The notes under the pieces are model-generated. The model had not been told where the DNA came from, did no database searches, and worked only from the letters and a program-made list of their open reading frames with translations. This document shows, piece by piece, positions 35,094-61,880 of a stretch of 64,000 bases of DNA; the stretch's first letter is position 1, and the number at the start of each line of letters is the position of its first letter. The stretch covers positions 15,413,001 through 15,477,000 of the forward strand of contig JAYKYS010000010.1 of assembly GCA_036924285.1 (NCBI GenBank). The letters run 5' to 3'. The position numbers and the translations under genes are program-made. This DNA comes from Asterella californica. Lineage: Eukaryota; Streptophyta; Marchantiopsida; Marchantiales; Aytoniaceae.

Positions 35094-36466
35094 TGTCGGA
35101 GTGTGATCCGTCTACCTAGGAAAGCGCCGGGCTTCTGGCTGTGGTTGTTTACTCAAGAGGTTGGCTTTCAGGTCACAACAGGAGCTATAAACACTCACAC
35201 AGGAGTGTATGATCCTCTGATATGCTCAAAAAGCGAAATTTAGGTCTCACTGGTAGTAATAGGCTTAAGCGGTGAACTTTGACACTCAAAGAGAGGAAAA
35301 CTATGAAGGTTTAGACCTCTAAACTTCCCCTACATGCAAATGAGGTACTACTGAACTCACAGACGAAGTTTCAACCTGAGATCAAATTCTGACACGGAGA
35401 TATGAACAGAAAAGTTCTGAATAAGAGAATTATGGCAATTTCTGGTACCTAGACAGCTATTCAGACATAGAACAGAGAATTGGCTCGATGAATTTCAAAT
35501 CTTCTCACAGTATTTGAAGTCTACAGGATGCTGAACATCCCTGTGAAGTTGGGACTCCTGAATGTTTGTAGAACTCCAGATCTCCTTCTCTAAAGTCGCT
35601 GCTCTAGATTAAGAGCTTTTCAGACCCCCTCTGCTTCAGCGGCCGCCCTGAATTACTCAATTACTCAAATGATATGAAACTTTTTGGACAGTCGTAGCCC
35701 TCCTGACAGTGAACGCAACCACGAAGTTTTGAAGTGATTTCCTCAATTCTGCTGCAATTGGCACCGAAAACCCCAAAATCAACAAAAGTGACGCAGTTTT
35801 GGCACAATCCGAACTTCAATTGGGCATAACTCCTTGTTTATTGATCCAAATCGAGCAAAAATTTCACTGACAATGCTTGGCACAACGAGCTCTCTCTTCC
35901 TGTGCTCTCCGATTTCGAAGATACCTCACCAATTGCTCGAACTCTCCTCTAGAGCTCTGTTTCTAAACTTAGAGTTTTACAAAAGACAAAAATGGACCAA
36001 TGGGAGTTCATAGCTCCACTTGACTGTCCTTTTGTGCCTTAAACTACCTGGTAACTTATCTACACTCATAGGCTACCACGTCAAGCCCCCTAGAGTGCCA
36101 GCGTAAAACTTAAACTACCTAAAATGACACATAGCCCTGAAAAATAACTTAAATTAGCTAGAAAGCGTGCATGGGCGACAAGTAAGTACAACCCATGAGC
36201 TCAAACCACTATCAGCATGGAAACCCTAAGTTATGTACATTGAACGTCATAGACTAGTAAGAAGTCACTTGCACAAGCGCACAAATGCTTGAACAAGATA
36301 ACTAACATACTATCAGCCTACTAGGACTCAAAATAGTGCTAACACCGTATGCAAAGGTGTCAAACATATACATAAAAGACTAGAAGTAATATGAGCTAAC
36401 TTCTAGAACTACCAAACCTAAGCGTCGGAGTAGAAGTCAAGCATGTAGCCGCCAAATGGTGCGACA
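35094..36466 (-). repeat. 3' LTR of element B
   Basis: Plus-strand ends TGTCGGAGTG and GGTGCGACA. It is a diverged reverse complement of the A LTRs, with indels making it 91 bp longer. The minus-strand polypurine tract CAGAGGGGGTGGA lies directly outside at about 36467-36480, as in A at 43957-43970. Confidence 0.93.
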
Positions 36467-36514
36467 TCCACCCCCTCTGAACCTGCACATCCTCCGGTAT
36501 GTGCCAGATCCAGA

Positions 36515-39376: not shown

Positions 39377-39435
39377 TCCTAAGAAGCCAGTGGATAATGC
39401 CTCATGCTCTATTGGATCAGGCGAGAATCCTAGCT

Positions 39436-39984
39436 CTACTGTACCGTTGAAGTCTCGCTCTTCAATGGTACTCTGCCAAAACCCCTAGACTCTCTAAACT
39501 CCTGAGTAATCTTAGGTAGTGGACGGTCTCTCAAGCTATCACGATTCCTCTCATGTTCTGCAGCAACGGTCAAAAACTGAACAGCTCTTTTGCCGTCTCT
39601 ACTACGTATCCTAGCATAGGCTGAACCATCATCCATAACTCGTGTCTCCATTCTAACAGCAGTAATGTAAGGCTGCCCTAGAATGATAGGATAGGTTGAC
39701 ATGTCTTGCACAAAGAAATTCTGAACATCACTGATGTCACCCACAGTTACCTTGATGTTGGGACAAGCACCATAGAGTTCTCCCCTCTGGTTGTTGGCAG
39801 CACGGATAAGCCATCCATGATCGGTGTCTATGGGCCACCTCCCACGCTTGTACAGCTCCTTAGACATCAGATTAATCTCTGAGCCATGATCAATCAACGC
39901 CACCACAGGTTCCTCTAGATCTCCCAGCTTCACTAAGGTCTCTGTGGTTGCTCTCGCCCAATGGTTGTGAGAATAATGGCTCTT
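39436..39984 (-). CDS. element B protease region
   Basis: Nearly identical to the A protease, with D-H-G in LIDHGSEINLM. It lies downstream of the TAG at 39985-39987, which ends gag; the same codon is CAG in A. So in the ancestor gag ran straight into protease. Pol again lies in the -1 frame, exactly as in A. Confidence 0.8.
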   Translation of the reverse strand, partial: KSHYSHNHWARATTETLVKLGDLEEPVVALIDHGSEINLMSKELYKRGRWPIDTDHGWLIRAANNQRGELYGACPNIKVTVGDISDVQNFFVQDMSTYPIILGQPYITAVRMETRVMDDGSAYARIRSRDGKRAVQFLTVAAEHERNRDSLRDRPLPKITQEFRESRGFGRVPLKSETSTVQ

Positions 39985-41808
39985 CTACGATGCTTCCACC
40001 TCATCTTCAAACCTCACGTGCTGATCTGATCTTCCCTCTGATACTTGAGAGCAGTAACCAGCAATCTCATCCTCCTCATCCTCCGACAGTTTGGTCCCTA
40101 GAGCGTTAAGCGTAGCTGCTTCACCCAAAATCTGACGTTTCCTCTTGATGATATCTATGATAACCTCATGGAACTCACGCTTTGCTATCCCAAGAATCTC
40201 ACCCAAGGTAAACTCAACCTTCCCATTCAAGATACGGTTCTCTAACACCTGCTTCAAGTCTGTAGCAATCTCAATGTCAGACTGAAGCTTGTATGCAGGC
40301 ATCTTACCCTTCTCCTTGCTTCTCTCCTTCTCCTTTGGTGTTGTAGATGGTAGATCCTCCATAGTTTCCTCCCGAGTAGGTGTTGTCTCCTGCCTTGTCT
40401 CTGGTCTAGCCCTTTCACTCCTTGTAGCAGGTCGTTTGGCTGTAGAAGCCTCACCTGCATCCTCCCTCCTGCGTTTTTCTTCTAGTACAGCTTCATGCTG
40501 ACTTCTTGCAACATAAGCATGCACTGACATAGTATCCACAGGATCATTCCATCCTGTAGCTTCTCGAATTGAGTTGCCAATCCTTCGTAGCACATCCTTA
40601 TCTAGCTCTGTTCTAGCTACGGACCGCACTACATCAGACCACAACCCAGTAGTCTCTTTCTCTCTCTCCATCTCCACTTTCACTCCACAGGTAGCAGCAT
40701 TCACAAGAGAAACAGCATGTGATGCTGATATCTCATTCACAAGCCTCTTCATACCACCCTTGCCAAAGTTGGTTCCCAACATCATCCCAGTCTCTCTCAA
40801 ATGGATCTTACCATCTTTGAAGAAGATCAGATCCTTCCTCAATGCATCTGAAAACTCCCCACAATCTCTCCTTACATGGTCTAGGCTATCACACCATATA
40901 CAACGATGAACAAAGCCTTCTCTCATCTGAGGTCTCTGCATAGCAGGCTGTACATTCTGCTCCTTCTCTTCTAACCTAGTGAGCTTAAGCTTAAGCTCCT
41001 TCATACCCTTAATCAACTCATCAAGCGGTGAGTCTTCCTCTCTAGCAATTACCAAAGCAGGCTTAGTAGGCAACTGCTTGACAGGAATTATCAGAGGTGC
41101 TGCTTCACTTACCACCACCTTGTCCCTTCTTCTCTGTCTCTTGGCCAGCAAAGAAACAGCCTCTTCAACCTCCTTCCAGTCAGTCTTCAATCCTCTCTCC
41201 TCACTCTTGTCTTCCAGCAACAGCTCAAGCTTCTCTTGAATAGTCACGTCCGCTGCTTGTAGGAAAAGCTCGGTCTTCTCAACCTCTAGTGTAAGCTTCT
41301 CTGTCCTAGAAAGCTGAGCATATTGACGATCAAACTCCCTTAACAACTCATTTACAGACAAACCTTTGTTAGGTTTCACCACCCACTCCAAGAATGTTCT
41401 CTTGGTCACCCTCTCTGAATCTTCAGTGTAGTACTCCTCCTTCAAAGCGCGCATAAAGCTCTCCCAACTCTGTCCTTGCTGCTGCTTGAGCTCCTTCACA
41501 CGCCCACGAATCTCAGGGACAACAGCAAGTTCAAAGTTCTCCACCATCTTCTTCTCAGGTACCTTGTTCACCTCCATCTCCCTAGCATAGTATCGCACAT
41601 ACTTGGAAATATCTGTCCCCTTGAACTGATCCATCTGATGCACCACCGATTGCAACGCCTTGGTTGCTAATACCTCCTTCCTCTCTATGCTCTGCTGCTG
41701 CTGCATAAACATGGAAAAAGCTTGGAACATCTTCATCGTAGCAGCATCAAACTGAATAGGTTGCTGAGCAGCAGCAACACCTCCACTTGATGATCCTTGG
41801 TTGGCCAT
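39985..41808 (-). CDS. element B gag
   Basis: 607 codons, nearly identical to A gag but without the 13-bp duplication. It has the same QQPIQFDAATMKMFQAF start, CCHC knuckle (CIWCDSLDHVRRDC) and charged tail. It ends at a TAG where A has CAG. The ATG lies 78 bases inside the LTR at 41887. Confidence 0.9.
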   Translation of the reverse strand: MANQGSSSGGVAAAQQPIQFDAATMKMFQAFSMFMQQQQSIERKEVLATKALQSVVHQMDQFKGTDISKYVRYYAREMEVNKVPEKKMVENFELAVVPEIRGRVKELKQQQGQSWESFMRALKEEYYTEDSERVTKRTFLEWVVKPNKGLSVNELLREFDRQYAQLSRTEKLTLEVEKTELFLQAADVTIQEKLELLLEDKSEERGLKTDWKEVEEAVSLLAKRQRRRDKVVVSEAAPLIIPVKQLPTKPALVIAREEDSPLDELIKGMKELKLKLTRLEEKEQNVQPAMQRPQMREGFVHRCIWCDSLDHVRRDCGEFSDALRKDLIFFKDGKIHLRETGMMLGTNFGKGGMKRLVNEISASHAVSLVNAATCGVKVEMEREKETTGLWSDVVRSVARTELDKDVLRRIGNSIREATGWNDPVDTMSVHAYVARSQHEAVLEEKRRREDAGEASTAKRPATRSERARPETRQETTPTREETMEDLPSTTPKEKERSKEKGKMPAYKLQSDIEIATDLKQVLENRILNGKVEFTLGEILGIAKREFHEVIIDIIKRKRQILGEAATLNALGTKLSEDEEDEIAGYCSQVSEGRSDQHVRFEDEVEAS

Positions 41809-41886
41809 GATATCTGATCCTGTAACACTCTCAAGAAAACTCCCACCCTAGGTGTTTCACGTCGAGTTCACCACCAAAAGAGAGTA

Positions 41887-42696
41887 TGTCGGAGTGTGAT
41901 CCGTCTACCTAGGAAAGCGCCGGGCTTCTGGCTGTGGTTGTTTACTCAAGAGGTTGGCTTTCAGGTCACAACAGGAGCTATAAACACTCACACAGGAGTG
42001 TATGATCCTCTGATATGCTCAAAAAGCGAAATTTAGGTCTCACTAGTAGTAATAGGCTTAAGCGGTGAACTTTGACACTCAAAGAGAGGAAAACTATGAA
42101 GGTTTAGACCTCTAAACTTCCCCTACATGCAAATGAGGTACTACTGAACTCACAGACGAAGTTTCAACCTGAGATCAAATTCTGACACGGAGATATGAAC
42201 AGAAAAGTTCTGAATAAGAGAATTATGGCAATTTCTGGTACCTAGACAGCTATTCAGACATAGAACAGAGAATTGGCTCGATGAATTTCAAATCTTCTCA
42301 CAGTATTTGAAGTCTACAGGATGCTGAACATCCCTGTGAAGTTGGGACTCCTGAATGTTTGTAGAACTCCAGATCTCCTTCTCTAAAGTCGCTGCTCTAG
42401 ATTAAGAGCTTTTCAGACCCCCTCTTGAGCTCAAACCACTATCAGCATGGAAACCCTAAGTTATGTACATTGAACGTCATAGACTAGTAAGAAGTCACTT
42501 GCACAAGCGCACAAATGCTTGAACAAGATAACTAACATACTATCAGCCTACTAGGACTCAAAATAGTGCTAACACCGTATGCAAAGGTGTCAAACATATA
42601 TATAAAAGACTAGAAGTAATATGAGCTAACTTCTAGAACTACCAAACCTAAGCGTCGGAGTAGAAGTCAAGCATGTAGCCGCCAAATGGTGCGACA
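41887..42696 (-). repeat. 5' LTR of element B with internal deletion
   Basis: It is 810 bp and matches 35094-36466 except that about 563 bp are missing at about 42424, where CAGACCCCCTCT joins TGAGCTCAAACC. The deleted part includes the GCGGCCGC-containing region. The loss hits the promoter-bearing 5' LTR and may weaken transcription of B. Confidence 0.9.
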
Positions 42697-43924
42697 GCGT
42701 CCTAAGCTACAAGGAGGTATACCGCAACGGGTGGTATGTGACTTGGAATTGCAGCAGCAGCTGATCAAGGAGTTTCATGAGAGTCTATGGGCCGGTCATA
42801 GAGGAGTTTGGGCTACATTTGCCAAGATTAAGGAGAAGTATTGGTGGAAGGGTATGTATAAGGATGTAGTACAGTTTGTTTCATCCTGTATACCTTGCCA
42901 GATGTATTCCAACGTACGTCATCGTGATGGATTGCATCCTACTTATCCTTTAGCCATTCATTACAAATGGGTAGTTGATCTGGTAACTATGCCATTTGGA
43001 CTTGGACAAATGAGGTATCTAGTCTTGGCTAGAGAAGATATATCTAACCAAGTTGAAGGTCGTGCCCTGAGGACGAAGACCACTGCTAGTGTCTGCCGCT
43101 TTCTACTTGAAGATGTTATTTGTAGGTATGGGTGTGTGGAAAAGATCACTGCAGATAGGGGCGAGCTGGATTCACAAGAAGCAGTTGAGTTCTTCAAGCG
43201 ACTGGGAATCAAGTTGGCGTTAACCACTGCTTACAATCCTGAAGGGAATGGTAAGAGCGAAAGAGGTCATCCGCCAATCATCAAAGCTTTGGTAAAAGCT
43301 TGCAAGGGTAAGATCCGTGAATGGCCTAGACTGCTACCGTTTGCTTTGTGGGCAGATCGTACAACTCATAGTACCGTTACAAGTTACATGCCAGCAGAGT
43401 TGATACTAGGACAGAAACCTGTGATGCCGATTGAGGAGGTTGTGCCTACTTGGAATGTTTTGCCATGGGAAGATGATAGAAGTACGGAGGATCTTCTTGC
43501 ATTAAGGATCCAGCAGTTAGAACGAAGACCTGAGGATGTTGCCAAAGCTGTCGAAAGATTAAAGATTGCTAGAGAGAGAAACAAAGGAAGATTTGATAGA
43601 ACGCATAGATTACGACCCAAACCAATTAAAGAAGGTGATTGGGTGTTAGTCTATGATAGTAGTCTTGATAATCAGCATAGCACTATCAGGAAGTTCTCCA
43701 AGAGATGGTTTGGACCTTATGTGGTGTTAGAAGTTTATGATAATGCCACATACTCCTTGAGAGAGTTAGATGGTGCAGTGCTCAAGATACCAGTCGCAGG
43801 AAAGAGAATCAAGCTCTTTAGGAGGAGAGGGGAGGACCAGAACGTTACAGAGTTTACAGAGGATGAAGCTGAAGACTCAATGCAGGTTGAAGATGAGTTT
43901 GAAGCCGAAGCTGAAGAGTCTTGA
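42697..43924 (+). CDS. element A integrase
   Basis: Continues the A pol frame interrupted at 35093. The zinc-binding H-H-C-C region (HESLWAGHRGVW, CIPCQ) is followed by the catalytic core with Asp in WVVDLVTM, Asp in TADRGEL and Glu in NGKSERGH. A C-terminal domain (EGDWVLVYDSSLD, RWFGPYVVLEVYD) and an acidic Glu/Asp tail end at 43924. No chromodomain is visible. The polypurine tract CAGAGGGGGTGGA lies at 43957-43970. Confidence 0.9.
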
Positions 43925-43970
43925 TCTGGATGGCACATACCGGAGGATGTGCAGGTTCAGAGGGGGTGGA

Positions 43971-45252
43971 TGTCGCGCTACTTGGCGGCTACATGTTATA
44001 TTTCTATTCCGACGCTTGAGTTTAGTAGTTCTAGAAGTTAGCTTATATTTCTTCTAGTCGTTTATGTATATGTTTGACACCTTTGCATACGGTGTTAACA
44101 CTATTTTGAGTCTTAGTAGGTTGATCACCATGTTGATAGGGCTTAAGCTCATGGGTTGTATTTGCGTGTCGCCCATGCACGCTTTCTAGCTGATTTAAGT
44201 TATTTTTCGGGGCTGCGTGTCGTTTTAAGTAATTTAAGTTTTACGCTGGCACTCTAGGGGGCTTGACGTGGTAGCCTATGAGTAAAAATAAGTTGCCACG
44301 TGGTTTAGGGTACTAAAGGACAACCAAGTGGAGCTATGAACTCCCATTGGTCCGTTTTTGTCTTTTGTTAAACTCTAAATTTAGAAACAGCGCTCTAGAG
44401 TAGAGTTCGAGCATTTGGTGAGGGATCTTCGAAATCTGAGAGCACAGGGAGAGAGGTCTCGTCATGCCAAGCACTTCCAGTGAAAATTTCGATCGATTTG
44501 AGTCAATAAAGACGGAGTTATGAGCAATTGAAGTTCGGATTGTGTCAAAACTGAATCATTCTTGTTGGATGTAGGGTTTTCAGTGTCATTCGCAGCAGAT
44601 TTGAGGAAATTGCTTCAAAACTTCGAGGTTGTGTTCTCCGCCAGCAGGGCTACGATTTCACAAAAAGTTTCATATCGATTGAGCAACTGAGTAATTCAGG
44701 GCGGCCGCTGAAGCTGAGGGGGTCTGAAAAGCTCTTAATCTAGAGCAGCGACTTCAGAGGAGGAGATCTGCAGTTCTGTGAACATTCAGGAGTCCCAACT
44801 TCACATGGATGTTCAGCACCCTGTAGACTGCAAATCCTGTAAGAAACTTTGAAATTGATCGAGCCAAACTCCTGTTATAGGTTGAAATAGCCAGCTAGGT
44901 ACCAGAAATTGCCGTAGTTTTCTTGCTCAAAACTTTTCTGTTCATATCTCCGTGTCAGAATTTGATCTCAGGCTGAAATTTCGCCTGTGAGTTCAGTAGT
45001 ACCTCATTTGCATGTAGGGGAAGTTTGGAAGTCTAAACCTTCATAGTTTTCTTCTCCGTGAGTGTCAAAGTTCACCGCCGGATCCTATTACTGCCAGCTA
45101 GACCTGAATTTCGCTCTCTGAGTATATTACTAGATCTTACACATCTGTGTGAGTGTTTATAGCCCTATTGTGACCTGAAAGCCAACCTCTTGAGTGAACA
45201 ACCACAGCCAGAAGCCCGGCGCTTTCCTAGGTAGACGGATTACACTCCGACA
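43971..45252 (+). repeat. 3' LTR of element A
   Basis: 1282 bp, TG to CA, almost identical to 29110-30391. It is followed by the GCGC duplication and the interrupted MTase-element integrase. Confidence 0.95.
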
Positions 45253-46820
45253 GCGCGTACAACTGCTAAGCTTGGGTCAACAGTACCATCAATGTTGGGA
45301 AGATGACATGGCGCGCAATTACGCACATGGTCCTTCCACACAACACCATCACGGCCCTCTAACATGAGTACTCCAGAAGGTAACACCTCACGCACTCGTA
45401 AAATAGTGCGTCCTGCGGTCACGTCCAACGTCGTCGGTGCAGTCTGATGTAGATAGATATAATCGCCAGGATGAAATCTGCGAATCGACGGCCGATAACC
45501 TCCTCCTCGGATAGTCGCATACCGCAACGTGTCTCTATGATGTACAATCGCTAGGTTCTCAAAAGCCATAGGCATAACTCTCCGAAATGTCTCTGCTCGT
45601 TGAGAACATGCTCTCACCCACATATCCGGATCATCAAGGTCCAGCACCTCAGCAGAATCACGACGAATGGCCGAAGGTAGATCTGGATCTCGGCCATACA
45701 ATAAGAAATACGGTGAGAAGGAAGCCAAAGACGCTTGTCGGCTAAAACGGTAGCCCATAGCCAACCATGGTAACTGCACATCCCAGTCTCCCAAGTGGCC
45801 CTTCTGCAAGCCATACTTGCGCAATCCTCTCTTCACCGTCTGAACTACCCTCTCCGCCAAACCATCCGCCTCAGGATGATCTCGAGATGTAGTCCGATGA
45901 TCAATCAGCGCCTGATCACACAAGGCCTGAAACTCACCAAGGAACTCTGTACCTTGGTCTGTCAGCACTTCAGCTGGTGCTCCGAAACGACTCAGCACTC
46001 GATCTAAGAACGCGTACGCCGTCTCTTCACTCGCCTTGTCTAGTAATGCCACCAACTCAATCCACTTGGAGAAGTGCTCCACCATCACCAACACATACCG
46101 GTGGTGACGTACGGTCAACGGTAAGGGTCCCGCAAAATCCAAACTCCAACGGTAACCCAACCCCATAATCGGTAAGGGGTGTAACTGTGGAGTAGGAGCA
46201 TTAAACGATGCTCGTACTCGATCACAAACCACACATCGTGCGACAAACTGTTGCACATCGATGTGCATACCACACCACCAATACTGTCCTTGGAGTAAGC
46301 TATGCGTACGCTTCACTCCAAAATGTCCCAACTCCTCATGGGCATGTCGTACTAACTGTGCCCTCTGGGATGGATGTGACACTATCCGTACCCTCCCATC
46401 ACCCCACACTCGAAGTACATGTCGTCCTTCTCGTCGAAATCTCTTCGCTCGTTGGAGGACACGATCTCGCTCCTTGGCACTTACTGTGCCTACTACCACA
46501 CCAGTACGTAGATACTCCATCACGGTCACATCATCATGGATATCTCGCTGGTCTGAAACACCATCTCCACCCTCAGGATCTGGAGACTCATCATCTACTC
46601 TCTGACCAGATAAAGATACGACTTGGCCCTCCATACTAGAGTTCATGGCCAACACACAAAGAAAGGCAGATGCATGCCACTCTGACACTATCTCCTCATC
46701 AACCTCGTCATGCCAGCGAGCCCCAGTCTGATCCTGCTGACTCGCGCACGGGTTGCGACTCAACCCGTTGGCATCTAGGTTTGCAACTCCAGGTCTATGT
46801 ACTACCTGGAAGTCATACTC
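45253..46820 (-). CDS. MTase element integrase
   Basis: Minus strand, frame continuous with RT through a TAG at 46821; the first ATG is 46763, and numbers below count from it. RNase H ends just upstream. The zinc-binding region has H142, H147, C177 and C180 (HEELGH, CVVC). The core catalytic residues are D209 (WSLDFAGP), D269 (LTDQGTEF) and E304 (ADGLAERV), spacing D-x34-E. The C-terminal domain starts near HPGDYIYLHQ. The reading runs into the A LTR and stops falsely at 45240. The true continuation is the PHD finger at 29109-28955. Catalytic residues are intact. Confidence 0.9.
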
Positions 46821-48227
46821 CTATAAGATCAGAGCCCATCGTGCAAGCTTCCCTGTAAGCTTGTCGGACTCCATCAACCACTTGAGCGGCTGGTGATCAG
46901 TGATGAGAGTAAAGGGGTTCCCAAACAGATAACATCGAAAGTGTGCAACAGCCCACACTGCCGCCAAACACTCTCCCTCATACCAACTATACCTCGCCTC
47001 CGCTGAATTGTTGGAGCGACTGGCATACGCCACCACGAACTCCTTTTTCTCATCATCATGCTGAGTCAGCACTGCTCCAAGTCCCAACATACTCCAATCG
47101 ATGTGTAGTTGGAAAGGACGCCCCCTAACGGGTCTCCTCAAGATGGGAGCAGATGTCAACCTATCCTTGAGCTCTATGAAAGCTCGCTCCTGCTCATCTC
47201 CCCACTGCCACTCTTGGTCCACCTTCATCAGCTTGGTCAACGGCTTCGCAATTGCACTAAACCCTTTCACGTATCGACGATAGAAGTTCGCCAAACCAAC
47301 AAATGCTCGAACTCGACTCACATCTGTGGGGCGTGGGATACGTGCAATAGCCTCAACCTTCGTCTGTTGAACACCCAATCCACCTGGATAGATGGTGTGG
47401 CCCAGATACTCTACCAACTCCTGGAAGAACTTACACTTCCCAGGGTGTAACTTCAACCCATGAGCTCTCAACCGCTCAAACACATCCCGTAAGTGTCTCT
47501 CGTGCTCCTCCACTGTAGCACTATAGACTAAGATGTCGTCAATATAACATCTGACAAAATCCAATCCTGCTAGGATTCTGTCCATCACCCTTTGGAACTC
47601 AGCATGGGCGTTCTTCAACCCAAATGGTAAGAACCGCCACTGATACAAACAATCCTTGCCGTGAGAGTCAATTCCCCAAAATGCTGTCTTGGAATTATCT
47701 TCTTCTCTCACTAGCAACTGATGATACCCTGCTCGAAGATCCAAAGTACTGAAGACCTTCACATGCCCCACTGCATCAAAGATCTCCTCAGGTGTTGGCA
47801 TGGCATACTTATCGGACTTCGTCTGTCGATTGATAGGACGGTAGTCTCCACACATCTGCCTATCCGTGTAGTTGCCATACATATCCTTCTTGGCTGGCAT
47901 AACTGTGGCAGATGCATACTCTCCATGCGACATCTCCACCAACCCAGCCTCCAACAAGTCTTGAGTCCGACTCTGGATCAAGGCTCTCTCCATGTCACTG
48001 TACCTGTAAGGACGTCGAAAGATTGACGTGTCATTAGCCAAGTCGATCCGTATACCAGGTCCCTTCAAGGTACCCAAATCCTTCATACTGAAGGCAAAAC
48101 AATTCCTGTAGCTCTTCAGGAATCTTTGGACTCTTCGTCTCTCCTCTCCTATAAGCTTGGGTCCGATCTCTGGCTCCCAAGTATCCTCTGTCACCATGCT
48201 AGAGGTAGAAGACGAAGTCGTTGACTG
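46821..48227 (-). CDS. MTase element reverse transcriptase and RNase H
   Basis: First ATG 48197, 458 codons. RT motifs: RQMCGDYRPINRQT, STLDLRAGYHQLLV, LPFGLKNAHAEFQRVM, catalytic CYIDDILVYS. RNase H: QLHIDWSMLGLGAVLTQ, then ITDHQPLKWLM. This is a conventional gypsy RT, unlike the F-L-D-D type of A/B. It lies downstream of the methyltransferase in the same frame. In-frame TAG codons at 48228 and 46821 bound it. Confidence 0.92.
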   Translation of the reverse strand, partial: QSTTSSSTSSMVTEDTWEPEIGPKLIGEERRRVQRFLKSYRNCFAFSMKDLGTLKGPGIRIDLANDTSIFRRPYRYSDMERALIQSRTQDLLEAGLVEMSHGEYASATVMPAKKDMYGNYTDRQMCGDYRPINRQTKSDKYAMPTPEEIFDAVGHVKVFSTLDLRAGYHQLLVREEDNSKTAFWGIDSHGKDCLYQWRFLPFGLKNAHAEFQRVMDRILAGLDFVRCYIDDILVYSATVEEHERHLRDVFERLRAHGLKLHPGKCKFFQELVEYLGHTIYPGGLGVQQTKVEAIARIPRPTDVSRVRAFVGLANFYRRYVKGFSAIAKPLTKLMKVDQEWQWGDEQERAFIELKDRLTSAPILRRPVRGRPFQLHIDWSMLGLGAVLTQHDDEKKEFVVAYASRSNNSAEARYSWYEGECLAAVWAVAHFRCYLFGNPFTLITDHQPLKWLMESDKLTGKLARWALIL

Positions 48228-48518
48228 CTATCTTGCAGCCTCTGGAGCAGTTTCCTTCTGCTCACCACCAACAACCTCCACCGCTACTGTGTGTAAAACT
48301 TCTGCAGTTCTAGCTGCAAACTCCACACTCTCTTCTATGACCTCCCATGATGTCCAAGGATGACGAACTCCACGTGCCTCGCCCCCAGTCTTTACCTCCA
48401 CCGACCCGGTAGGCAAAGAGCTCAAGAGTGCTCGAGCAGTAACACCCGTCGATCGCATCCGACGCTGCTCAGCCAATCCAAGGCTAACAATCCATGTCAA
48501 GCAATTCAAGTCCATTGC
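48228..48518 (-). pseudogene. MTase C-terminal end and linker between two stops
   Basis: Same frame as its neighbours. After the TAA at 48519-48521 it reads AMDLNCLTWIVSLGLA, which fits the end of a C5-methyltransferase (motif X region). A linker follows, ending at the TAG at 48228-48230, after which RT starts. Intact in frame, but cut off by stops on both sides. Confidence 0.7.
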
Positions 48519-51212
48519 TTAACCCAATACTTGACGACGTGAAGCCTTCGACACCGAAGCTACTGCCGTCGTACCCGTAGTGAAACCCATCGCTCGCTCT
48601 CTCTCATCGGCATTGGGCTCCACCAACTGCCGTAATTGAGCATCCCACACAAGCCCAGGTCCTCCATCTCTGTAAGCATGTGACGCTGGAAAGCTTACCA
48701 AAGTGGGTAATGCTACCATGGGCCGTCCCACTAGGTTCACCACTGCCATGGGTGACCTATCGACGACTCTCACTACTTGAGATCGTCGTCCTACATCCAA
48801 GATGCTATCAACCGTGAGGTGCGCTGGTCGTCTCACTCCATCGTGTGCACGCTTAAGCACCTCTCTCGGTAACAAGTTCGTCCACCACAACCGTGGACGA
48901 TGTGCACGAGATCCCACTCTCGCTGCATCCAACAACACTGCTGGTCCAACCCAAGACCGCACTTGGTGCACACTCGTCATCATATGTGTACGAGCATCAC
49001 CCAACAAAGGAACGTTCTCCAAGATGTACGCTGGAGAATCCACCTGATGCATCTGGAGATGTCGTAGGATCCGTAACATCTCCCAGAACATCCTAGATCG
49101 CAGGTCGTGTAAACCCTGACCTCTCCCTGCACGCGTGTGACCTTGACATGGCCATCCGGCTATCACCAAGTGAATGGTGCCCACAAACGTAAGATCCTGC
49201 GCCCCCAACAGCGAAATATCCGACGGTAATGCTTGCTGGTATTCTCTAACAGCTGATATGGGCAACAACTCAGGATATCTCTGCACCAAACGTGCCACAT
49301 GTCGCAATGAGATGCGTCTCGCAATCTCATCTCTCTCCACATACAAGTATCGCTGTACTTGTATACCTGCCTGCAATACCGCAGCCAAACCTGTGCTGAT
49401 CTCTCCAAACAGCTCCAGCACACATACACCTTCCTCTGGATACTGCCACACAATGGGAGTCGTATCCAACGGTGATAAGATTACAGGGCCAGTAGCAAGA
49501 ACAACCCTTTGTTCCTCTACTGGTGGTACAAAAGCTTCACTCCAAGCCTGCTGCACCAACTGATCAGCATACTGCTGCAACTCTCCACTCGAACTCCAGA
49601 GTGGAACATCCAAGGCAGATGGTACTAACGTAGACATGCTAGGCATGTCCTCCACCTCCTCATAGATCGGAGTATCCTCCGCATGGGCATTACCCTCCAA
49701 CAACTCGTCCGGCCAAGTGATGATCGAACTGAACCCTGCAACGGATGCCATCGTTCTTGGTGTAGGCTCCGTCGTCCCAACTCTAGCACTGAACCGCACT
49801 GGTAAGCGGCTCACTCGTCCCTCACCGGACTGCCAACCTGGTCTGTAAGATGCTGTCTCTGCCCAATAGTCAATCACGAACCCCATAGGGTACAACACAG
49901 CACCTCCCACCAATACATCATAAGACTCTGCGGCTGTAACAATGGCCTTGGCCTTCACCATAGAGCCATCCGTGGGGTGATCTGGCCGAACTCTCACCGT
50001 CAACATCTCACGTGTCATGTGTAGAGCCGTACCTCCTGATCCCCCTAGAGATGTCTGCAACTGGAATGGACATCTCTCTATCTCGGACTTCTTCAGACCC
50101 AAACCAATACACGCCGCCTTTCCCAACATCAACGGTTGGGCTCCAGAGTCTAACAAGACCTTCTGAGGTCGATACAATTTCCCTGAAGGTGCCACCAAAC
50201 AGAAGATACCACTTCTGTTGTCCAACAACACCACACCTGGTGCCAAACCAGCACGGTCAATCGCCGGCCTAGTTGGTAACTCATCTAACCTAGCAGCCGC
50301 CGCTTGCCAAGTACCACTGGTAGCTGTCCTGATCCTCGACTCCATGGACACGTCTACCGCCTCTCGCTGAACTACTTCAGCACTAGAGGTAACTACATCC
50401 TCGCTCTCACTGAGCGTGGCCGCCAACTGGAACACTGGAGCCAAGTTGACTCCCAATGCTCTCATATCCGTGGCTGAGAATAGTGGGGTTCGCAAAACTG
50501 CTGTAGCCGCCCCCAACATCGGGTTCGACGTCGCATCCACAGACGTCGAAGGTGGACTCACATCACACCCACTCCTGGATGTCGATGCCTCCAACTCTAC
50601 TGCACCATCAGTAGGCCGTTTAGGAACCATAGATGTGGTCCTCAATGCCTCCGATAACGTGAACGACTGGGGAAGCCTAGCCTGTCTACCAGCCTCCCCG
50701 CGTTGTGGATCCAACTCCACTGACGCCCCTCGTGGCTCAGAGGCACGTACTGCACCTCTAGTCACTGCCGCAGATGCCTCAATTTGCGCCACACCAGCCA
50801 TGAAGTCGAAGTCACCTCCTTCTCCTCCATAAGACGTGGAAGCCTCTGTTCCACCTGACCTCCGCTGAGCCATAGCCATACTAGCTATCCTCTGCTCCAA
50901 CTGCTCAATCCGAGCAGCCATACCTACTTCTGACGTCGTAGCAGGCGGTGGACCGACCAGTCCTCTCCCAGGTGCTGGACCTCTACCTCCAGCTCGACCA
51001 CCACGGCCTCCTTGAGCTCCTCCGCCTCGTCCACGATCAGCCTTCCCTTGCCGCAACTCGGGATGGAGATCAAAACAACGGTCACTACTGTGACCAGGTC
51101 GTCCGCAATGCTCACATTGCCTAGGTACTGCTGGAGACGTCCCTGATGTCCCTGACGTCTCATAACCTCTCCTCTGTGGACAGTCCCTCTGCTGATGAGG
51201 ACCATCACACGT
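48519..51212 (-). CDS. MTase element: CCHC knuckles, protease, C5 cytosine DNA methyltransferase
   Basis: Continues gag in the same frame after a TAG at 51213-51215. An intact CCHC knuckle (CEHCGRPGHSSDRC) lies at 51075-51116. The protease box VLLDSGAQPLML has D-S-G at 50142-50150. The methyltransferase spans about 49430-48500: motif I VLELFGEISTGLAAVL (about 49381-49430, S-adenosylmethionine binding); motif IV AGWPCQGHTRAGRG with the catalytic P-C-Q at 49143-49151; motif VI ENVP at 49008-49019; motif VIII RPRLWWTN near 48876-48899; a target-recognition stretch; motif IX/X-like RERAMGFTTGT and RRQVLG. All key residues are present. The enzyme should transfer a methyl group to cytosine C5 in DNA. 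The TAA at 48519 cuts off only the last motif. Its position between protease and RT is very unusual. Confidence 0.92.
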   Translation of the reverse strand, partial: TCDGPHQQRDCPQRRGYETSGTSGTSPAVPRQCEHCGRPGHSSDRCFDLHPELRQGKADRGRGGGAQGGRGGRAGGRGPAPGRGLVGPPPATTSEVGMAARIEQLEQRIASMAMAQRRSGGTEASTSYGGEGGDFDFMAGVAQIEASAAVTRGAVRASEPRGASVELDPQRGEAGRQARLPQSFTLSEALRTTSMVPKRPTDGAVELEASTSRSGCDVSPPSTSVDATSNPMLGAATAVLRTPLFSATDMRALGVNLAPVFQLAATLSESEDVVTSSAEVVQREAVDVSMESRIRTATSGTWQAAAARLDELPTRPAIDRAGLAPGVVLLDNRSGIFCLVAPSGKLYRPQKVLLDSGAQPLMLGKAACIGLGLKKSEIERCPFQLQTSLGGSGGTALHMTREMLTVRVRPDHPTDGSMVKAKAIVTAAESYDVLVGGAVLYPMGFVIDYWAETASYRPGWQSGEGRVSRLPVRFSARVGTTEPTPRTMASVAGFSSIITWPDELLEGNAHAEDTPIYEEVEDMPSMSTLVPSALDVPLWSSSGELQQYADQLVQQAWSEAFVPPVEEQRVVLATGPVILSPLDTTPIVWQYPEEGVCVLELFGEISTGLAAVLQAGIQVQRYLYVERDEIARRISLRHVARLVQRYPELLPISAVREYQQALPSDISLLGAQDLTFVGTIHLVIAGWPCQGHTRAGRGQGLHDLRSRMFWEMLRILRHLQMHQVDSPAYILENVPLLGDARTHMMTSVHQVRSWVGPAVLLDAARVGSRAHRPRLWWTNLLPREVLKRAHDGVRRPAHLTVDSILDVGRRSQVVRVVDRSPMAVVNLVGRPMVALPTLVSFPASHAYRDGGPGLVWDAQLRQLVEPNADERERAMGFTTGTTAVASVSKASRRQVLG

Positions 51213-52274
51213 CTAGCAAGGACCCGCTTGCTGCTGACTAGCGAAGGACGGCATGGGCTTCTGCCCACCAGATCCTCCTACACCTCCCTGCGATCGTGAC
51301 TGCTCTGCACGATCCTTACCACCACCACCACCACCACCACCACGCTGTTGCGTAGCCTGTGATCCTCGAGAAGAGGTGGTCGCTCCATGTGGTGTCTCCT
51401 TGCTGAACCCAGCAACCACCACCCTCTCCTCCACCATGTTGAGCTCAATCCGCTCAGCCAGACTAAAGACAACCGCCAACGTCGGAGCAGTATCTCTAAG
51501 AAGAGTAGCATCTCTAACTCTCCTACGCAGCTCCCGGTCTAGTATCCCATACCAGAACTGAACTGCCTGTGCTTCCGTCACCCCTTGGGTAACGCTGATC
51601 AACCGCCTCATGCGAGTAAATGCCTCGCGTAGGCTCTCTCCAGTCTTCCGCTGGAACTCCTGCAGACTCCTCAACTTGTCGGTCCGCACACCCTGATAGT
51701 TCTTCCTCAAACATTGGAAGAACTGAACCATTGGGTTAAACCCTGGTGGTATCCCGCTCACACTACCACCCGCTCCACTACCTGTGGACGCACCGCTGGT
51801 AGTAGGTACTCCGTCACCTACGGCTGTACCACTGCTACTGGCACCCGAACTCGCAGGTGCTACGCCTCCCGAAACTGCACCAGTAGTGATAGAAACGTAG
51901 TTGGGAGACCAATGTTGTCTCCACAACTCGATCTCAACACTGTAATCTCGCCTGAACTTATGATAATCGTCCATCGGCGGTCCCTCCAAGTGCTGGAACA
52001 AACCCTTCCACGCCATGAAGGGTGTAAACAGCTGTGGGTTCCGCATCTGCTGCAGATCGCACCAACTGTCGAACTCCTGGATGAAGTCATCCAGCTCAAT
52101 GGTACCAACTGTACCCGAGTAACGTCGAGGCCCCTTCGTGGCCCCATAGATCTCGTCCATGTCCCACAACAACGGTGTTGCGACACTAGACTCACCACCA
52201 GAAAACGCGCTGTCTGCGTCTGACTCGTCCTCTGGAACAACCGACGGCAATGGTGTAGGTAGTCGGTACCTCAC
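51213..52274 (-). CDS. MTase element gag
   Basis: 353 codons from the ATG at 52274. The capsid-like part has LDDFIQEFDSWCDLQQ and FQHLEGPPMDDYHKF, then a Ser/Gly/Ala-rich linker. A second helical part contains LREAFTRMRRLISVTQGVTEAQAVQFWYGIL, typical of gypsy gag. A Gly run is coded by a (GGT)n tract at 51311-51346. The TAG at 51213-51215 falls inside the first CCHC knuckle, between its first two Cys, so it is a mutation and not a natural end. Confidence 0.87.
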   Translation of the reverse strand: MRYRLPTPLPSVVPEDESDADSAFSGGESSVATPLLWDMDEIYGATKGPRRYSGTVGTIELDDFIQEFDSWCDLQQMRNPQLFTPFMAWKGLFQHLEGPPMDDYHKFRRDYSVEIELWRQHWSPNYVSITTGAVSGGVAPASSGASSSGTAVGDGVPTTSGASTGSGAGGSVSGIPPGFNPMVQFFQCLRKNYQGVRTDKLRSLQEFQRKTGESLREAFTRMRRLISVTQGVTEAQAVQFWYGILDRELRRRVRDATLLRDTAPTLAVVFSLAERIELNMVEERVVVAGFSKETPHGATTSSRGSQATQQRGGGGGGGGKDRAEQSRSQGGVGGSGGQKPMPSFASQQQAGPC

Positions 52275-52794
52275 CCCACTCCGTGTATACCCACTGTCCG
52301 AGAAGTCCCCACCAGAACCTCCCGAGAACTCTGTGATGAGAGAATCCCGCTAACACACTCCCCAACCGGAATGTCGCAATCTCCGTCACCACCGTAACCA
52401 CCACTTGCCTAATCCCGCTCCTACTGAGCTCACCTATCCCCTACTAGGACGGTCAAGGTAAGGGCAACCTGTACCTGCCATCACCACAAGCAGCCTCTCA
52501 CGGTCTGTTGGTCGTCACTCCAACCGCACCGTGAGAGAGACAAAGGTAGTCTGACTGGTCCGCAACTCCAGCCTCACTACCGACAGCACACTGGAGTGAA
52601 CTCACTCCGGAAATCAAGCGCCAACACAAGCAAACGCGGCGCACAAACAGGAAGCAGAATATGGAGGGGTTCCAACCACAAGAAGTCCAAACGATAACCC
52701 TCCACACTCAAACATTCACATAAAGAGAAACCCAGCCCCACCCGGACTGACGTCTCCTCGTCGGTGACCACATGCATAATATATGGTCACCAAC
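52275..52794 (-). other. MTase element leader with candidate primer site
   Basis: Untranslated leader between the 5' LTR and gag. Next to the LTR the minus strand reads TGGTGACCATATATTATG (about 52775-52792), a possible primer site because it starts TGG; the tRNA is not identified. GGTGACC and GGTCACC at about 52763-52790 form an inverted repeat that could fold as a hairpin over this site. Confidence 0.55.
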
Positions 52795-54378
52795 TGTCGT
52801 AACTGACACTGGAGGTCACTAACTAGATGTCCACACCTCTAGTAGCTCCAAAAACATCCACGTGATAGCTCTACTAGCTCACCCAAGACAACTGCCACCA
52901 ACTGCCTACATACGCGTCTCTACGGTATAGACAAACACTACCACAACTATAGCTTGCCCCTAATACTATGGGGTCGCCCTACCACTCCTCTAGGAACATG
53001 CGAGAAGGTCTCCTACTACCTTAAACAAGTCTATAAGTACTTGCACGCATCCCTGTAGGACACCAAGAGCTATTGGTCTAGTGGTAAAGCCAAAGCTAAG
53101 ACTACAAAGTCAGGAGTCCAGGTCCAGAAATAGTGTTGGGATGAGTGACCAGCTGGTTTTACACTTCCCACACACTAGAACTTGGATACCTCTCTCACGC
53201 ACGCCAGCACGTTGACTTGCGGCGGGCGCGGGCTCAGGCTCAGGCTCAGCTCCGCTTCGCCTCCGCACTCTCGCACTCCGCTCTCACGCCTCCGCACTCA
53301 CGCACCTCTGCTCCTCGAAGCCTCCTAACACGCACTCCACACCTCGACACTCCCGCTCACTCTCCGCTCCGCTCCGCTTGAAGTAGAGTACAACGGGCAC
53401 ACACACCAAAAGAGACTCGGCTCCACCTCGAATTGCAGAAGATTGCACCAAAACAGCGAAAATAGCTTGCGGGTGCACACCGGTAACACAAAATCTGACG
53501 TAAAACAGCAAGAACACCCAAAGCCAACCCAGAAATCACCACAACAGATTCGCAAATGCACCACACACACTTCGCGAATGCACACACACACAAACCAACT
53601 CCTAAACTCGACTTTCCACACAAAATTGAGCCAAAAATCTGACGTAACTAGCCTTTTTGTGCTTTCGGGTGACACGGCAGCGAACTTCGACATGCCATAA
53701 CTTCTTCAATCCTTGGCCAAACTCCACGAGACTTGGTGCGCTAGAATCGTCTCTCCAATGCGCTTCCAAAGAGCCCACTCCGGCCCGACATTGACAACTA
53801 TTCTGTCTGCCACGCCCAAACGCGCAATCCGGCTCCAACAACACACTTCAAGAACATTCCGCAAAATTTCTGCAGCGCTTCCGCATGACAGAAATCTCCA
53901 CTCGATCCCAATCAACAGCAAATCGATCTGCGACCAGCAATGTAGCACGGCGCCCACACACCTCGATCACAGCTCCAAACAATCAACCACGAACAACAAC
54001 GCCCGAAGATACCAGCGGACGATTTCCGATTTCAGATCTGCGAGCTCTTACTGAACTCCGCCTCGACCTGCACTCAGTTCTTTGAGTAATCTGAATACAG
54101 AGATTACCATCTCCAACACCACAACAAGGATTACTCACAAACGGTCAAGCCAAACCCACTCTAAACGCGAAGAGAATCCGGGTTACACTCAACTAGACTA
54201 TCCACCATAGCCTGGAGCTTGAAGGCTCAACTCAAAGAACTAAGGCCTCCAAGCCCTACCTGCAAAGTTTACTCCTAGTGGGCTCTCCCCAACTCGCCCT
54301 AACGGCACTAACGGCCTTACCGGGATGCGCCACTTCGCACTCGGTCAACCTAGCCGAGGGATCCAAACTGACGTGACA
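52795..54378 (-). repeat. 5' LTR of the MTase element
   Basis: 1584 bp, plus-strand ends TGTCGTAACTG and CTGACGTGACA. Only its outer about 290 bases (54093-54377) recur at the 3' end (28385-28675). The inner part has a GC-rich block with CAGGCT repeats (about 53235-53260) and, at 53070-53130, a tRNA-like stretch with TGGTCTAGTGG. The outer end abuts the ACTC duplication in the LTR of element E. Confidence 0.75.
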
Positions 54379-54382
54379 ACTC

Positions 54383-55312: not shown

Positions 55313-56244
55313 CTATCTGTCATACAAGAGTGGGTCCTGAAAACCCTTACTTCTACAAATAGGAGAATCTCTCAAGGTTTGTCTATTTCGTTCATGGTTC
55401 GTACGAATGATCAAAAACTGAACAAAATGTCTATCATCTGGAATATGGATCCTAGCATAGTGAGATCTATCATCCATCACCTTGGTCTCCATCCGCAAGG
55501 TAGTGATATATGATCGGCCAAGAGTGATAAGATACGAAGCAGAAGATTGTAAGAAGAAGTGCTGATCTACCTCCAAATCATCTATTTTCATTCTCACATT
55601 AGGACAAGCGTCATATAACTCACCTTTCTGGTTGTTGGTAACACATAGCACCCAACCATGATTCGGTTCGATATGTCACTCTCCTCTCTCGTACACCTCC
55701 CATGATATGTTGTTGATCTCAGATTCGTGATCAAATAAAGCAGTAACAGAGTCAGACAAACTCCAAAGACGTACTCGTGTAGCAGTCGTAGCACGAGCCT
55801 AATGTCTCTTTCTGAAGTCACTGTCAGTAGATAAACTCTCCTTGTCAACTTCTTCATCATCAAACTCGATATTGTTGGTATCAACAACCAATGCTTCTTG
55901 CTGGCATCCGTTATCATCAACCTCCTAAAAATGCACCTTCCCAAATTTCGCATCATTCATAAAAGCTCCAATCACATCTGTCATCTGACTCTCTACTTGC
56001 TCGAACGGCACTCTTCTTTTTTGTCTGATGATGTCGATGATCAGCTCGTGAAACTCTTTCTTTGCAATACCAAGAAATTCTCGAAGAGAAAACTCAACTC
56101 GTGCGTCTAATATTTTTTTCTCCAAAATGCTCTTAAGATCAATAGAAGTTTTCATATCTGTCAACTTGTAAGCCCGTCCTTTCTTCTTCTCTTGGGTAGT
56201 AAATCGCCTACCGGTAGTTGACTCTTGCAGAGACCTCTGCACGT
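55313..56244 (-). pseudogene. degenerate A/B-family relative: gag end and protease
   Basis: Minus strand. 55925-56242 matches the end of A/B gag (AYKLTDMKTSIDLKSILEKKI, FHELIIDIIRQKRR). 55313-55651 matches the protease C-terminal half (NQKGELYDACPNVRMKIDD, LITLGRSYITTLRMETKVMDD). The catalytic region near 55730 has lost its Gly (D-H-E). Frameshifts and stops throughout. Much older than A and B. No pol follows on the left. Confidence 0.8.
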
Positions 56245-57510
56245 TGTCGTGATGTGAATTGTTTCACATCGTGAATAATTCATCTCTCAGTTTGAAGTTA
56301 GTCTCAGAGCGAAGTTAGGACCTCAGAGAAGTCCATTCTGGAGAATATTTTATATTTTGAGTCCTAGTAGGTTGTTTACCGTGATGATAGAGTTCAATCT
56401 CATGGGTTGCACTTACATGTCGCCCATGCATGCTTCATAGCGTGGTTAGGTTATCTTTCGAGATTACGTGTCATTTTACATGTCTTCGCATGTAGTTTAA
56501 GATTTACGCTGGCACTTTAGGAGCTTGACGTGGTAGCCTATGTGTGAAATGAAGTCACCACATGGTTTGAGGCACAAAAGGACAAGGAAGTGAAGCTATG
56601 AACTTCCATTGGTCCATTTTTATCTTTAGTGAAATACTAAACTTAGAAGTAGAGATCTAAAGAGGAGTTTGAGCAATTGATAAAGACATTCTAAAATCTG
56701 AGAACACAGGAGGTTAGGGCTCGTTGTGCCAGACGCTGTCAGTCAAATTCTTGAATTTGGAGCGGTAAAGAAGGAGTTATGGCAGATTGAAGTTCAGATT
56801 GTATCAGAATTGCATCACTTTTGTTGATTTTGGGGTTTTCAATGTCAATCGCAGCATAATTGAGAAAATCGCTTCAAATCTTTGAGGTCGCGTTCACTGT
56901 CAGCAGGGCTACGACTGTCCACAATTTTCATGTCAATTGAATGAGTGAGTAATTCAAGACGACCGCTGAAGCAGAGAGGGTCCAAAAAGCTCTCAATCAA
57001 AGGTAGCAACTTCAGAGAACGAGATCTGGAGAACAGTGTACAATCTGGAGGTCAAATTTCACAGGGGTGTTCAGCATGCTGTAGACTCCAAATCCTGTAA
57101 GAATCATCGAAAGTTATTGAGCCAATTCTCTGTTCTAGGTCGAAATGGCTGTCTGGGTACCAGAAATTACCGTAATTTCTTTGCTCAGAACGTTTCTGGC
57201 CATATCTCGATACTCTGATTTGATCTCAAGCTGAAATTTCGTATGTGTCTTCAGTAGGACCTTATTTACATGTAGGAGAAGTTCTAGAGCCTAAACCATC
57301 GTATGTTTCTGATTCTTGACTGTTAAAGTTCGCTGTCTGATCTTATCACTACCAGTTTAATCTGATTTTCATTTTCTGAGTATACTAGAGGATCCAATCG
57401 ACCTGTATGAGTGTTCATAGTGTCATCACATGACCTAAAGCCTATCTCTGTAGTAAACAACCACAGCCAGAAGTCCAGTGCTTCCCTGAGTAGTTGTATC
57501 ACAACCTTCA
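56245..57510 (+). repeat. solo LTR of the A/B family
   Basis: Opposite orientation to the gag it interrupts. It aligns along its length with the A LTR (GAGTCCTAGTAGGTTG, TGGGTTGCACTTACATGTCGCCCATGCA, GAATTTCGT-type U5 and CAACCACAGCCAGAAG end) with many substitutions. It starts TGTCG and ends near CTTCA. Gag sequence continues on both sides, so it is a solo LTR left by recombination. No clear target duplication. Confidence 0.75.
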
Positions 57511-61118: not shown

Positions 61119-61410
61119 CTGACTTGAAGGGATCGTTGAACGATGTTTAGAGTTCAGTTCTATATTCGACAAAAGGAGATTATGAGAGAGCACATGGAGA
61201 GAACGTTGGGAGGAGAGAGAGCTAACGCGATGTTAGCAACGTTAGAACCTTTCGTGTATCCCGTAGTGATATATGACGCGTTCGAAGTCATTCTTTACAT
61301 CTTGTTCACTTAGAAAGGGTTTGAGGAGAGTTGAAAGAAGGTGCAACAAGAGTTGTAGAGAAAGGAGGAGAGAAAAGTTATTAGAGGAGAGAAATTTGTG
61401 AGTTTAGAAA

Positions 61411-61880
61411 TTCTGCTCTCTGGAAAATTTGTACAGTCGCTGTCAACTTTTCTGTGAATTTTATTTTCCTGTGAAACTTTCCAGTGTTTTAGATTGGCTG
61501 ATAACCTATCTAAGACAAAAGAAATCATAGGAAAAGGTGGTGTAGAGAGGGAGCAATGATTTTTCAAAGTTGAGGGGGTCTATTCGTGAGAGTTGAGGAA
61601 TTCTGTTCTCTGGAGAAAGTTTACAGTCAGTGCCAGATTTTCTGTGAATTTTATTTTCCTGAGAAACTTTCCAGTGTTTTAGAGTGGCTGATAAGCTATC
61701 CAGGACAAAAGAAATCATGAGAAGATGAGGTCTGAAGAGGGAGAAAGGATTTTTCAAAGTGGAGGGGGTTGACAACCATGAGGGAAGTGAAAATATACAA
61801 ATTTCAGTTCTCTGAAAATTTGTACAGTCATCACCATCTCTTCTGATTAGGGAAGTTTCTGTTGAAACTTCATGATTTAG
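61411..61880 (+). repeat. tandem repeats in element D leader
   Basis: Three units of about 190-200 bp starting at 61411, 61601 and about 61801, each opening with TTCTG(C/T)TCTCTGG or similar. Units 1 and 2 share GAATTTTATTTTCCTG, CTTTCCAGTGTTTTAGA and GACAAAAGAAATCAT. Unit 3 is partial and diverged. Confidence 0.85.

Follow-up and report, generated by a model that had tools for sequence, protein, structure and literature searches.

The locus

The window analysed here, a stretch of 64,000 nucleotides from the liverwort Asterella californica (contig JAYKYS010000010.1, positions 15,413,001 to 15,477,000), contains a Ty3/Gypsy retrotransposon whose polyprotein includes a C5-cytosine DNA methyltransferase. 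A sequence-only reading had located this enzyme at 48519-51212, between a protease and a reverse transcriptase (RT). The coding content assigned to that interval is upheld, but the whole element is far longer: by self-comparison of the window it spans 28259-54378, with the repeat order A1-coding-B1-A2-B2, and is split by a second element (element B) at 29110-45252. A single minus-strand frame extends from 52349 to 45253, its open reading frames (ORFs; 52349-51213, 51212-48519, 48227-46821 and 46820-45240) being separated by stops only. Element B has inserted just after the integrase and the polyprotein resumes beyond it with a PHD finger. The coding features are as follows.

51216-52349, minus strand: Gag part of ORF1, stop-to-stop extent; matched in one frame by tblastn with Marchantia protein P0003
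51075-51116, minus strand: CCHC zinc knuckle CEHCGRPGHSSDRC, from the translation
49833-50237, minus strand: aspartic protease (LLDSGAQP), from the sequence; matched by relatives P0022 and P0026, which carry PF13650
48440-49460, minus strand: C5-cytosine methyltransferase domain of DNMT3 type; cut in the window copy by an in-frame stop (48519-48521) before motif X
48222-48230, minus strand: ORF1 stop in type I readthrough context, UAG-CAG-UCA, as in 20 of 20 other copies
46821-48227, minus strand: RT and RNase H, start of ORF2 (PF00078, E 8.4e-30; PF17917, E 1.4e-33)
45253-46820, minus strand: integrase, H2C2 and rve (PF17921, E 2.4e-16; PF00665, E 2.3e-14), with element B directly after it
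28958-29107, minus strand: PHD finger at the polyprotein C terminus (PF00628, E 8.6e-13)

The polyprotein order is Gag, zinc knuckle, aspartic protease, methyltransferase, RT, RNase H, integrase and PHD finger, in which the succession RT-RNase H-integrase (H2C2, rve) is that of Ty3/Gypsy elements. Chromoviruses are Ty3/Gypsy elements with a chromodomain on the integrase. No chromodomain is found among the Pfam matches of the window integrase ORF, a PHD finger standing in its place, and identity as a chromovirus was rejected on this ground. By sequence this PHD finger is nearest to those of CHD4, ubi-d4 (DPF2), MLL3 and KDM5B, a group that includes several readers of unmodified H3K4.

Protease (LDSGA), methyltransferase and RT (YIDD) do lie in one frame, as the sequence-only reading held, but the polyprotein it implied is interrupted in the window copy by in-frame stops at 51215, 48521, 48230 and 46823. 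The stop at 48230 is the ORF1 stop of the family, the same in all 20 other copies compared for ORF2. The remaining three are not seen in those copies: the Gag stop (51213-51215) and that at 48521 lack a counterpart in all 20, the stop at 46821-46823 in the 19 that are readable there (row 3 is not). The window copy is broken, by these three stops and by the insertion of element B near its 3' end. ORF1 (Gag-protease-methyltransferase) has about 1370 codons and closes with UAG-CAG-UCA, beyond which the ORF2 frame continues in register; a frameshift between methyltransferase and RT was rejected, since the frame is continuous. In tobamoviruses the type I readthrough motif is UAG-CARYYA (PMC5382211; for this and all papers cited, statements refer to the accessible part of the text). 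Other copies are better preserved. ORF2 is open from RT through PHD in 14 of 20 and broken in six; the number with both ORFs open is likewise 14, and one copy has a stop inside ORF1.

The methyltransferase domain

The enzyme gives a significant match to PF00145 (E 4.4e-8; residues 614-690 of the 845-aa ORF at 48519-51056, Pfam search) and its 313-aa segment, searched with phmmer against the PDB, has DNMT3A as top match (E 1.7e-9). A C5-methyltransferase inside a bryophyte Ty3/Gypsy polyprotein, the central claim of the sequence-only reading, is thereby confirmed. The motifs stand in the order it described: in the 897-aa frame GWPCQ (motif IV) is at residue 686, LENV (VI) at 731 and AHRPR (VIII) at 770. 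Alignment gives the order I to X without a rearrangement of the DRM type, the last motif being reached in intact relatives. Among 30 copies the catalytic cysteine motif GWPCQ is retained in 29 and reads GWSCQ in one; the motif I stretch is FGEIST in the window copy and FGGIST in 28.

A family profile searched against the PDB scores DNMT3A at E 1.9e-23 and the best DNMT2 at E 4.7e-5, and DNMT3A/B/C rank first by profile, Foldseek and structural alignment alike. By these comparisons the enzyme is of the DNMT3 type and stands further from DNMT2, DRM and bacterial enzymes. Two observations count against this assignment. A short tree (about 150 columns) does separate the family from host DNMT3 and DRM, but with weak support (0.24), and pairwise identities over the same stretch, 28-34%, do not single out DNMT3. 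A NCBIfam scan of the window protein returned a weak Dcm-type match only, below its cut-off. The host's DNMT3 and DRM were rejected as recent sources of the enzyme, because over the stretch compared the host exons (L111-L113; 28-31% identical to the window enzyme) come no nearer to it than does human DNMT3A, at 30%, or an enzyme of bacterial type, at 34%.

Genomic copies and element ends

The genome assembly (516.7 Mb, 773 contigs) was searched for copies, and 51 of 6766 first-look candidates were scored; the copy number given is a lower bound, and the copies examined are the ones that resemble the window copy best. Inspection covered the ends of 41 of the 51 (the window copy and 40 others), ORF1 of 30 and ORF2 of 20. 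At least 50 copies exist besides the window copy, 97-98% identical, and the 897-aa stretch is free of stops in 38 of these 50, the other 12 having one or two. The methyltransferase is present in all 51 scored copies of the query stretch and is therefore neither a fortuitous match nor an insertion of its own; a segment inserted separately and absent from all relatives was one of two outcomes that the sequence-only reading had named as fatal to its claim. A PF00145 search of the same genome gave 1250 first-look C5-methyltransferase candidates, of which 123 were scored, mostly a motif IV-VI stretch like that of the retrotransposon enzyme; the methyltransferase element may be present in hundreds of copies.

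The ends and joints of the window copy are listed below.

54379-54382, no strand: 4-bp target-site duplication, one flank (ACTC on the plus strand), equal to 28255-28258
54088-54378, minus strand: repeat A1, 5' end of the element, starting TGTCACG; end set by the empty site
28785-28795, minus strand: polypurine-type tract GTTAGGGGGGC, directly before B1, by sequence reading
28676-28784, minus strand: repeat B1; 110-nt match to B2, 99.1% identical
28674-28675, minus strand: spacer of 2 nt (GC) between B1 and A2
28383-28673, minus strand: repeat A2, 98.6% identical to A1 over 289 bp
28368-28382, minus strand: insert of 15 nt between A2 and B2, including a run of A9
28259-28367, minus strand: repeat B2, 3' end of the element, final CGACA
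28255-28258, no strand: 4-bp target-site duplication, other flank, by empty-site comparison
20204-20676, plus strand: empty target site in a paralogous host repeat that lacks the element; identity to the two flanks 84% and 88%

The left part of the empty site matches the B2 flank and the right part the A1 flank. Because this site lacks the element and holds ACTC once (20561-20564), the ends of the element are fixed: it ends TG...CA and has a 4-bp duplication. Conventional long terminal repeats (LTRs) at both ends are absent, the element terminating in the A and B portions of a split repeat. Two repeats, 44258-44950 and 56520-57208, were considered as LTRs of the methyltransferase element and rejected, as they are members of the element B family. 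The polypurine-type tract is seen in all 19 copies with B1 located (of 20; B1 was not located in row 16). By eye, without a systematic tRNA comparison, no TGG start is seen directly after A1, and Rfam and tRNA scans of the whole window found nothing.

The A-coding-B-A-B form recurs in 30 of the 33 copies with both ends in view, two others being A..B and one AA..B. Eight further copies have one end outside the piece (five BAB without the 5' end, three A without the 3' repeat). Exact 4-bp target duplications flank 30 of the 32 copies with both ends located. Within a copy, A1 and A2 differ by a mean of 1.4 positions (27 copies; zero in 13), against 6.8 for A repeats of different copies; insertion is therefore recent and the A repeats were copied together. 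The B1|A2 spacer is 2 nt in all 35 copies having the joint. The A2|B2 joint is regular in 26 of 35 and irregular in nine, where one extra base (four copies), a remnant of the polypurine tract (two) or other inserts, including the A9-containing one of the window, are found.

DIRS-like elements, which use a tyrosine recombinase, are not known to leave a target duplication. Membership of that class was rejected, since the element has an rve integrase, no tyrosine recombinase is found among the Pfam matches of the four ORFs, and duplications accompany nearly all copies.

Selection on the enzyme

Diverged copies (L114, L115, L117) were compared with eight young copies, L116 being left out as its match falls in two pieces. 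The methyltransferase domain has a dN/dS of 0.13-0.18 wherever L114 or L115 is paired with a young copy (16 pairs, not independent), each value below the Ka/Ks of 0.2 reported as upper bound for KnitGypsy-Dnmt3 of the alga Klebsormidium nitens (PMC5890265). The dN/dS values put the methyltransferase under purifying selection. Within the domain in 30 copies, pN/pS is 0.20 for variants found in at least two copies (6 N, 10 S, no stops), as against 0.53 for singletons, which comprise 32 N, 20 S and 5 stops; without two odd copies the values are 0.22 and 0.47. RT-RNase H is held more tightly, pN/pS for shared variants being 0.03, a value from 20 copies of which some are out of register.

Singleton transitions per site in ORF1 (30 copies) are highest at CHG (0.176), followed by CG (0.096) and CHH (0.074). 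Two copies contribute 268 of the 502 ORF1 singletons, one of them being out of register in Gag. The rows out of register are 24 (Gag) and 25 (near the end) for ORF1 and copies 3 and 15 for ORF2; the latter carry 1360 and 385 singletons, which makes the ORF2 singleton counts unusable and likewise affects the ORF2 shared-variant column.

Relatives in other lineages

Protein searches, each scoring about 7,980 candidates, find related elements elsewhere. The search with the domain gave 51 matches, from Marchantia polymorpha, Calypogeia fissa, Sphagnum troendelagicum, S. fallax, the chlorophyte Monoraphidium neglectum and environmental contigs. No protein labelled Klebsormidium nitens was among the matches. 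One match (P0052) has the sequence of a bacterial-type enzyme and was excluded from the tallies. A second search, with relative P0038 as query, gave 51 matches including itself and a transcriptome ORF (P0060; 1949 aa, labelled complete). Catalytic motifs are retained in relatives as low as 33% identity. Scans of viral contigs with the window enzyme and with P0054 found no locus.

Two domain orders occur. The methyltransferase precedes RT in bryophytes and some other contigs and follows RNase H in Monoraphidium and most matches of the second search. Of 98 proteins, 36 are RT-first and 13 methyltransferase-first, 27 are protease-methyltransferase pieces, 16 are methyltransferase-integrase pieces and six have no assigned order. 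In FastTree trees of the enzyme (88 sequences, without a plant DNMT3 set) and of RT (35 sequences) the RT-first proteins form one clade (support 0.93 each); deep nodes are weak, and either one capture or two may lie behind the two domain orders. Two trees place the window element's enzyme nearer to the Calypogeia copies and two others than to the Marchantia copies, though the node joining it to Calypogeia is weak. A PHD finger is present in 33 of the 37 proteins that extend at least 120 aa beyond the integrase. Two polyproteins, P0092 and P0099, have the methyltransferase before RT and integrase in one protein (P0099 with a PHD finger) and group with the bryophyte copies in the RT tree.

Other features of the window

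29110-45252, plus strand: element B, a younger, unrelated Ty3 element (LTRs of 1282 bp, 99.92% identical; 4-bp duplication GCGC)

Element B itself contains an inverted copy of its own family (35094-42425), so that, with the methyltransferase element around both, the nesting is threefold. At 56353-57503 there is an older relative, accompanied by a protease-like remnant at 55313-55675. Another Gypsy RT remnant with broken frames (22511-23622) is 27-38% identical to pol proteins of Marchantia and Sphagnum. An AINTEGUMENTA-type AP2/ANT gene occupies 7904-12716; with an identity of 84% to Marchantia paleacea and of 66-69% to Riccia, it places the host among the complex thalloid liverworts. A tandem pair of 183-nt repeats, 84% identical, is found at 61397-61769.

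Discussion

We propose that a liverwort Ty3/Gypsy family encodes, between its protease and RT, a DNMT3-type methyltransferase maintained by purifying selection, and that this enzyme probably methylates the element's own fresh DNA before or at insertion. The UAG closing ORF1 would be read through occasionally by ribosomes. With a leaky stop, the methyltransferase would be made at the level of Gag and be packaged into the particle, the site of reverse transcription, and RT and integrase would be made at a low level. Reverse transcription would produce LTR-like B-A units, and joining of the DNA ends would create the A|B joint, the site of the irregular inserts. The DDE integrase could use the B|GC|A joint as its two ends, and the PHD finger may read the histone H3 tail and steer insertion. 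Methylated cDNA would enter the genome resembling DNA silenced by the host, with a protecting, hiding or self-limiting effect possible.

Two-LTR circles carry end-joined junctions, and the A2|B2 joint may be a junction of this sort. The A..B and AA..B copies could then be opened one-unit and damaged two-unit circles. A fuller scheme is more tentative and, taken as a whole, rather doubtful: a lineage spanning green algae and land plants in which circles are opened by the DDE integrase at B|GC|A, so that the ends fall within the LTR-like unit and the repeats are split, a Gag-level DNMT3 behind a leaky stop methylates cDNA in the particle, and the PHD finger places pre-methylated copies in chosen chromatin.

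Several observations weigh against these proposals. (i) Two of the 32 copies have no target duplication, and an irregular A|B joint is also explicable by template switching without a circle. (ii) Not all dN/dS values are low: L117 gives 0.18-0.35 with young copies (dS about 0.09) and 0.22 with both L114 and L115, and the pair L114-L115 gives 0.34, dS being lower in most of the pairs that are not low. (iii) The contrast of shared and singleton pN/pS is not significant (Fisher p 0.15; 0.24 without the two odd copies), though its direction suggests selection. (iv) CpG observed/expected is 0.77 for the window copy, 0.71-0.75 for the window outside element B and 0.41-0.43 for element B; as the window copy resembles its surroundings, lasting CG self-methylation with decay is not supported. 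(v) Singleton transitions topped by CHG fit host silencing equally well, and the CHG excess could reflect host CHG methylation of young copies. (vi) The K. nitens enzyme of KnitGypsy-Dnmt3 had no activity in yeast, a result called inconclusive there (PMC5890265).

The enzyme might instead act on the host genome, methylating DNA of the host or of rival elements, or sparing the host by damping later activity of the element. Through its PHD finger the element could bring particle proteins to chromatin, and effects on the host and a slowed element are discussed by de Mendoza et al. 2018 (PMC5890265), but the position of the enzyme in the Gag-side ORF favours action inside the particle and we consider a host target unlikely. 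An RNA substrate (genome RNA or primer tRNA), as for DNMT2, appears improbable: the enzyme would be packaged together with RNA, and an RNA option was raised for SymbioLINE (PMC5890265), yet the profile favours DNMT3 over DNMT2 by many orders of E value. That the domain is a functionless passenger gene fragment is suggested by the broken window copy. The low dN/dS in the 16 pairs, the absence from the domain of any stop common to two or more copies (against five singleton stops), the catalytic motifs kept in distant relatives and the retention of the enzyme in both domain orders make it very improbable. Assembly artefact or contamination, for which nothing was found to speak, can practically be dismissed, given that the 51 scored copies lie on contigs as long as 54.8 Mb, that 30 of 32 copies have duplications of their own flank, and that the same window holds the liverwort AP2 gene.

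The origin of the repeats is more evenly balanced. DIRS-style reverse transcription of a linear template could make A-coding-B-A-B directly, without a circle opened by integrase, and the same repeat order is stated for DIRS elements and for KnitGypsy-Dnmt3 (PMC5890265). We rate this a serious contender, a little short of even. Against it, the four ORFs lack a match to tyrosine recombinase, the A-coding-B and A-A-coding-B copies with normal duplications are simplest as opened one- and two-unit circles, and polypurine-tract or poly-A remnants lie at the A|B joint in some copies.

DNA methylation is a main weapon of plants against transposons, and in this liverwort a transposon that is young and has multiplied strongly brings its own methylating enzyme, one kept under constraint. 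As many liverwort copies have open frames and relatives occur in the model Marchantia polymorpha, the benefit that a retrotransposon draws from methylating DNA could be addressed by genetics in a land plant. The split repeats, the DDE integrase and the measurable joint variants together form a natural record of how ends are made. If the reading with circles, PHD finger and self-methylation is true, one selfish element combines a writer and a reader of chromatin marks.

Comparison with known systems

Two precedents are published, KnitGypsy-Dnmt3 in Klebsormidium nitens and SymbioDIRS-Dnmt3 in Symbiodinium (de Mendoza et al. 2018, PMC5890265), and a 2025 survey repeats them as the streptophyte and dinoflagellate cases (PMC12344493). 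These are the captures in a charophyte and in dinoflagellates that the sequence-only reading had mentioned. Its suggestion of a new host-element interaction is too strong, because the liverwort element is a variant of this published kind. Our literature search, with most subscription journals outside its reach, found among the papers listed no bryophyte element of this kind and no paper titled on a PHD-bearing Gypsy element; the accessible parts of PMC6453930, PMC10952607, PMC9516144, PMC13398078, PMC9033089, PMC10538959, PMC9985172 and PMC8616336 do not mention such a bryophyte element.

Single features are shared more widely. Chromoviruses (PMC2864245) likewise have a domain of histone-reader type at the integrase C terminus, in their case a chromodomain rather than a PHD finger. 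The DNA transposon Ginger1-9_HM shares a Gypsy-type integrase core with C-terminal PHD finger, 4-bp duplications and TGT ends but is an animal element that also carries Ulp1 (PMC2836005). Orchid Ty3/Gypsy elements have likewise acquired an epigenetic enzyme, though theirs is an m6A RNA demethylase and their hosts are flowering plants (PMC9289625).

SymbioDIRS-Dnmt3, for which CG methylation was demonstrated in yeast, shares the DNMT3 in Pol and the A-coding-B-A-B repeats (PMC5890265). It has a tyrosine recombinase and another RT class, whereas the liverwort element has a DDE (rve) integrase and target duplications. KnitGypsy-Dnmt3 is closer, having Gypsy-type domains, an unrearranged DNMT3-type enzyme in the Pol frame, no introns, a stated DIRS repeat arrangement and a Ka/Ks below 0.2 (PMC5890265). 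Unlike it, the liverwort element resides in a land plant, closes its Gag-protease-methyltransferase ORF with a leaky-type UAG and has a C-terminal PHD finger, a domain unmentioned in the accessible text of PMC5890265. It adds 4-bp duplications, an empty site and joint variants, although KnitGypsy-Dnmt3 is compared by description and may share some of these features. The liverwort element is a land-plant variant of the kind published as KnitGypsy-Dnmt3. What the analysis contributes beyond the sequence-only reading is the DNMT3 type, the split-repeat ends, the leaky-stop layout, the PHD finger, the signature of purifying selection, and relatives in other bryophytes and a green alga.

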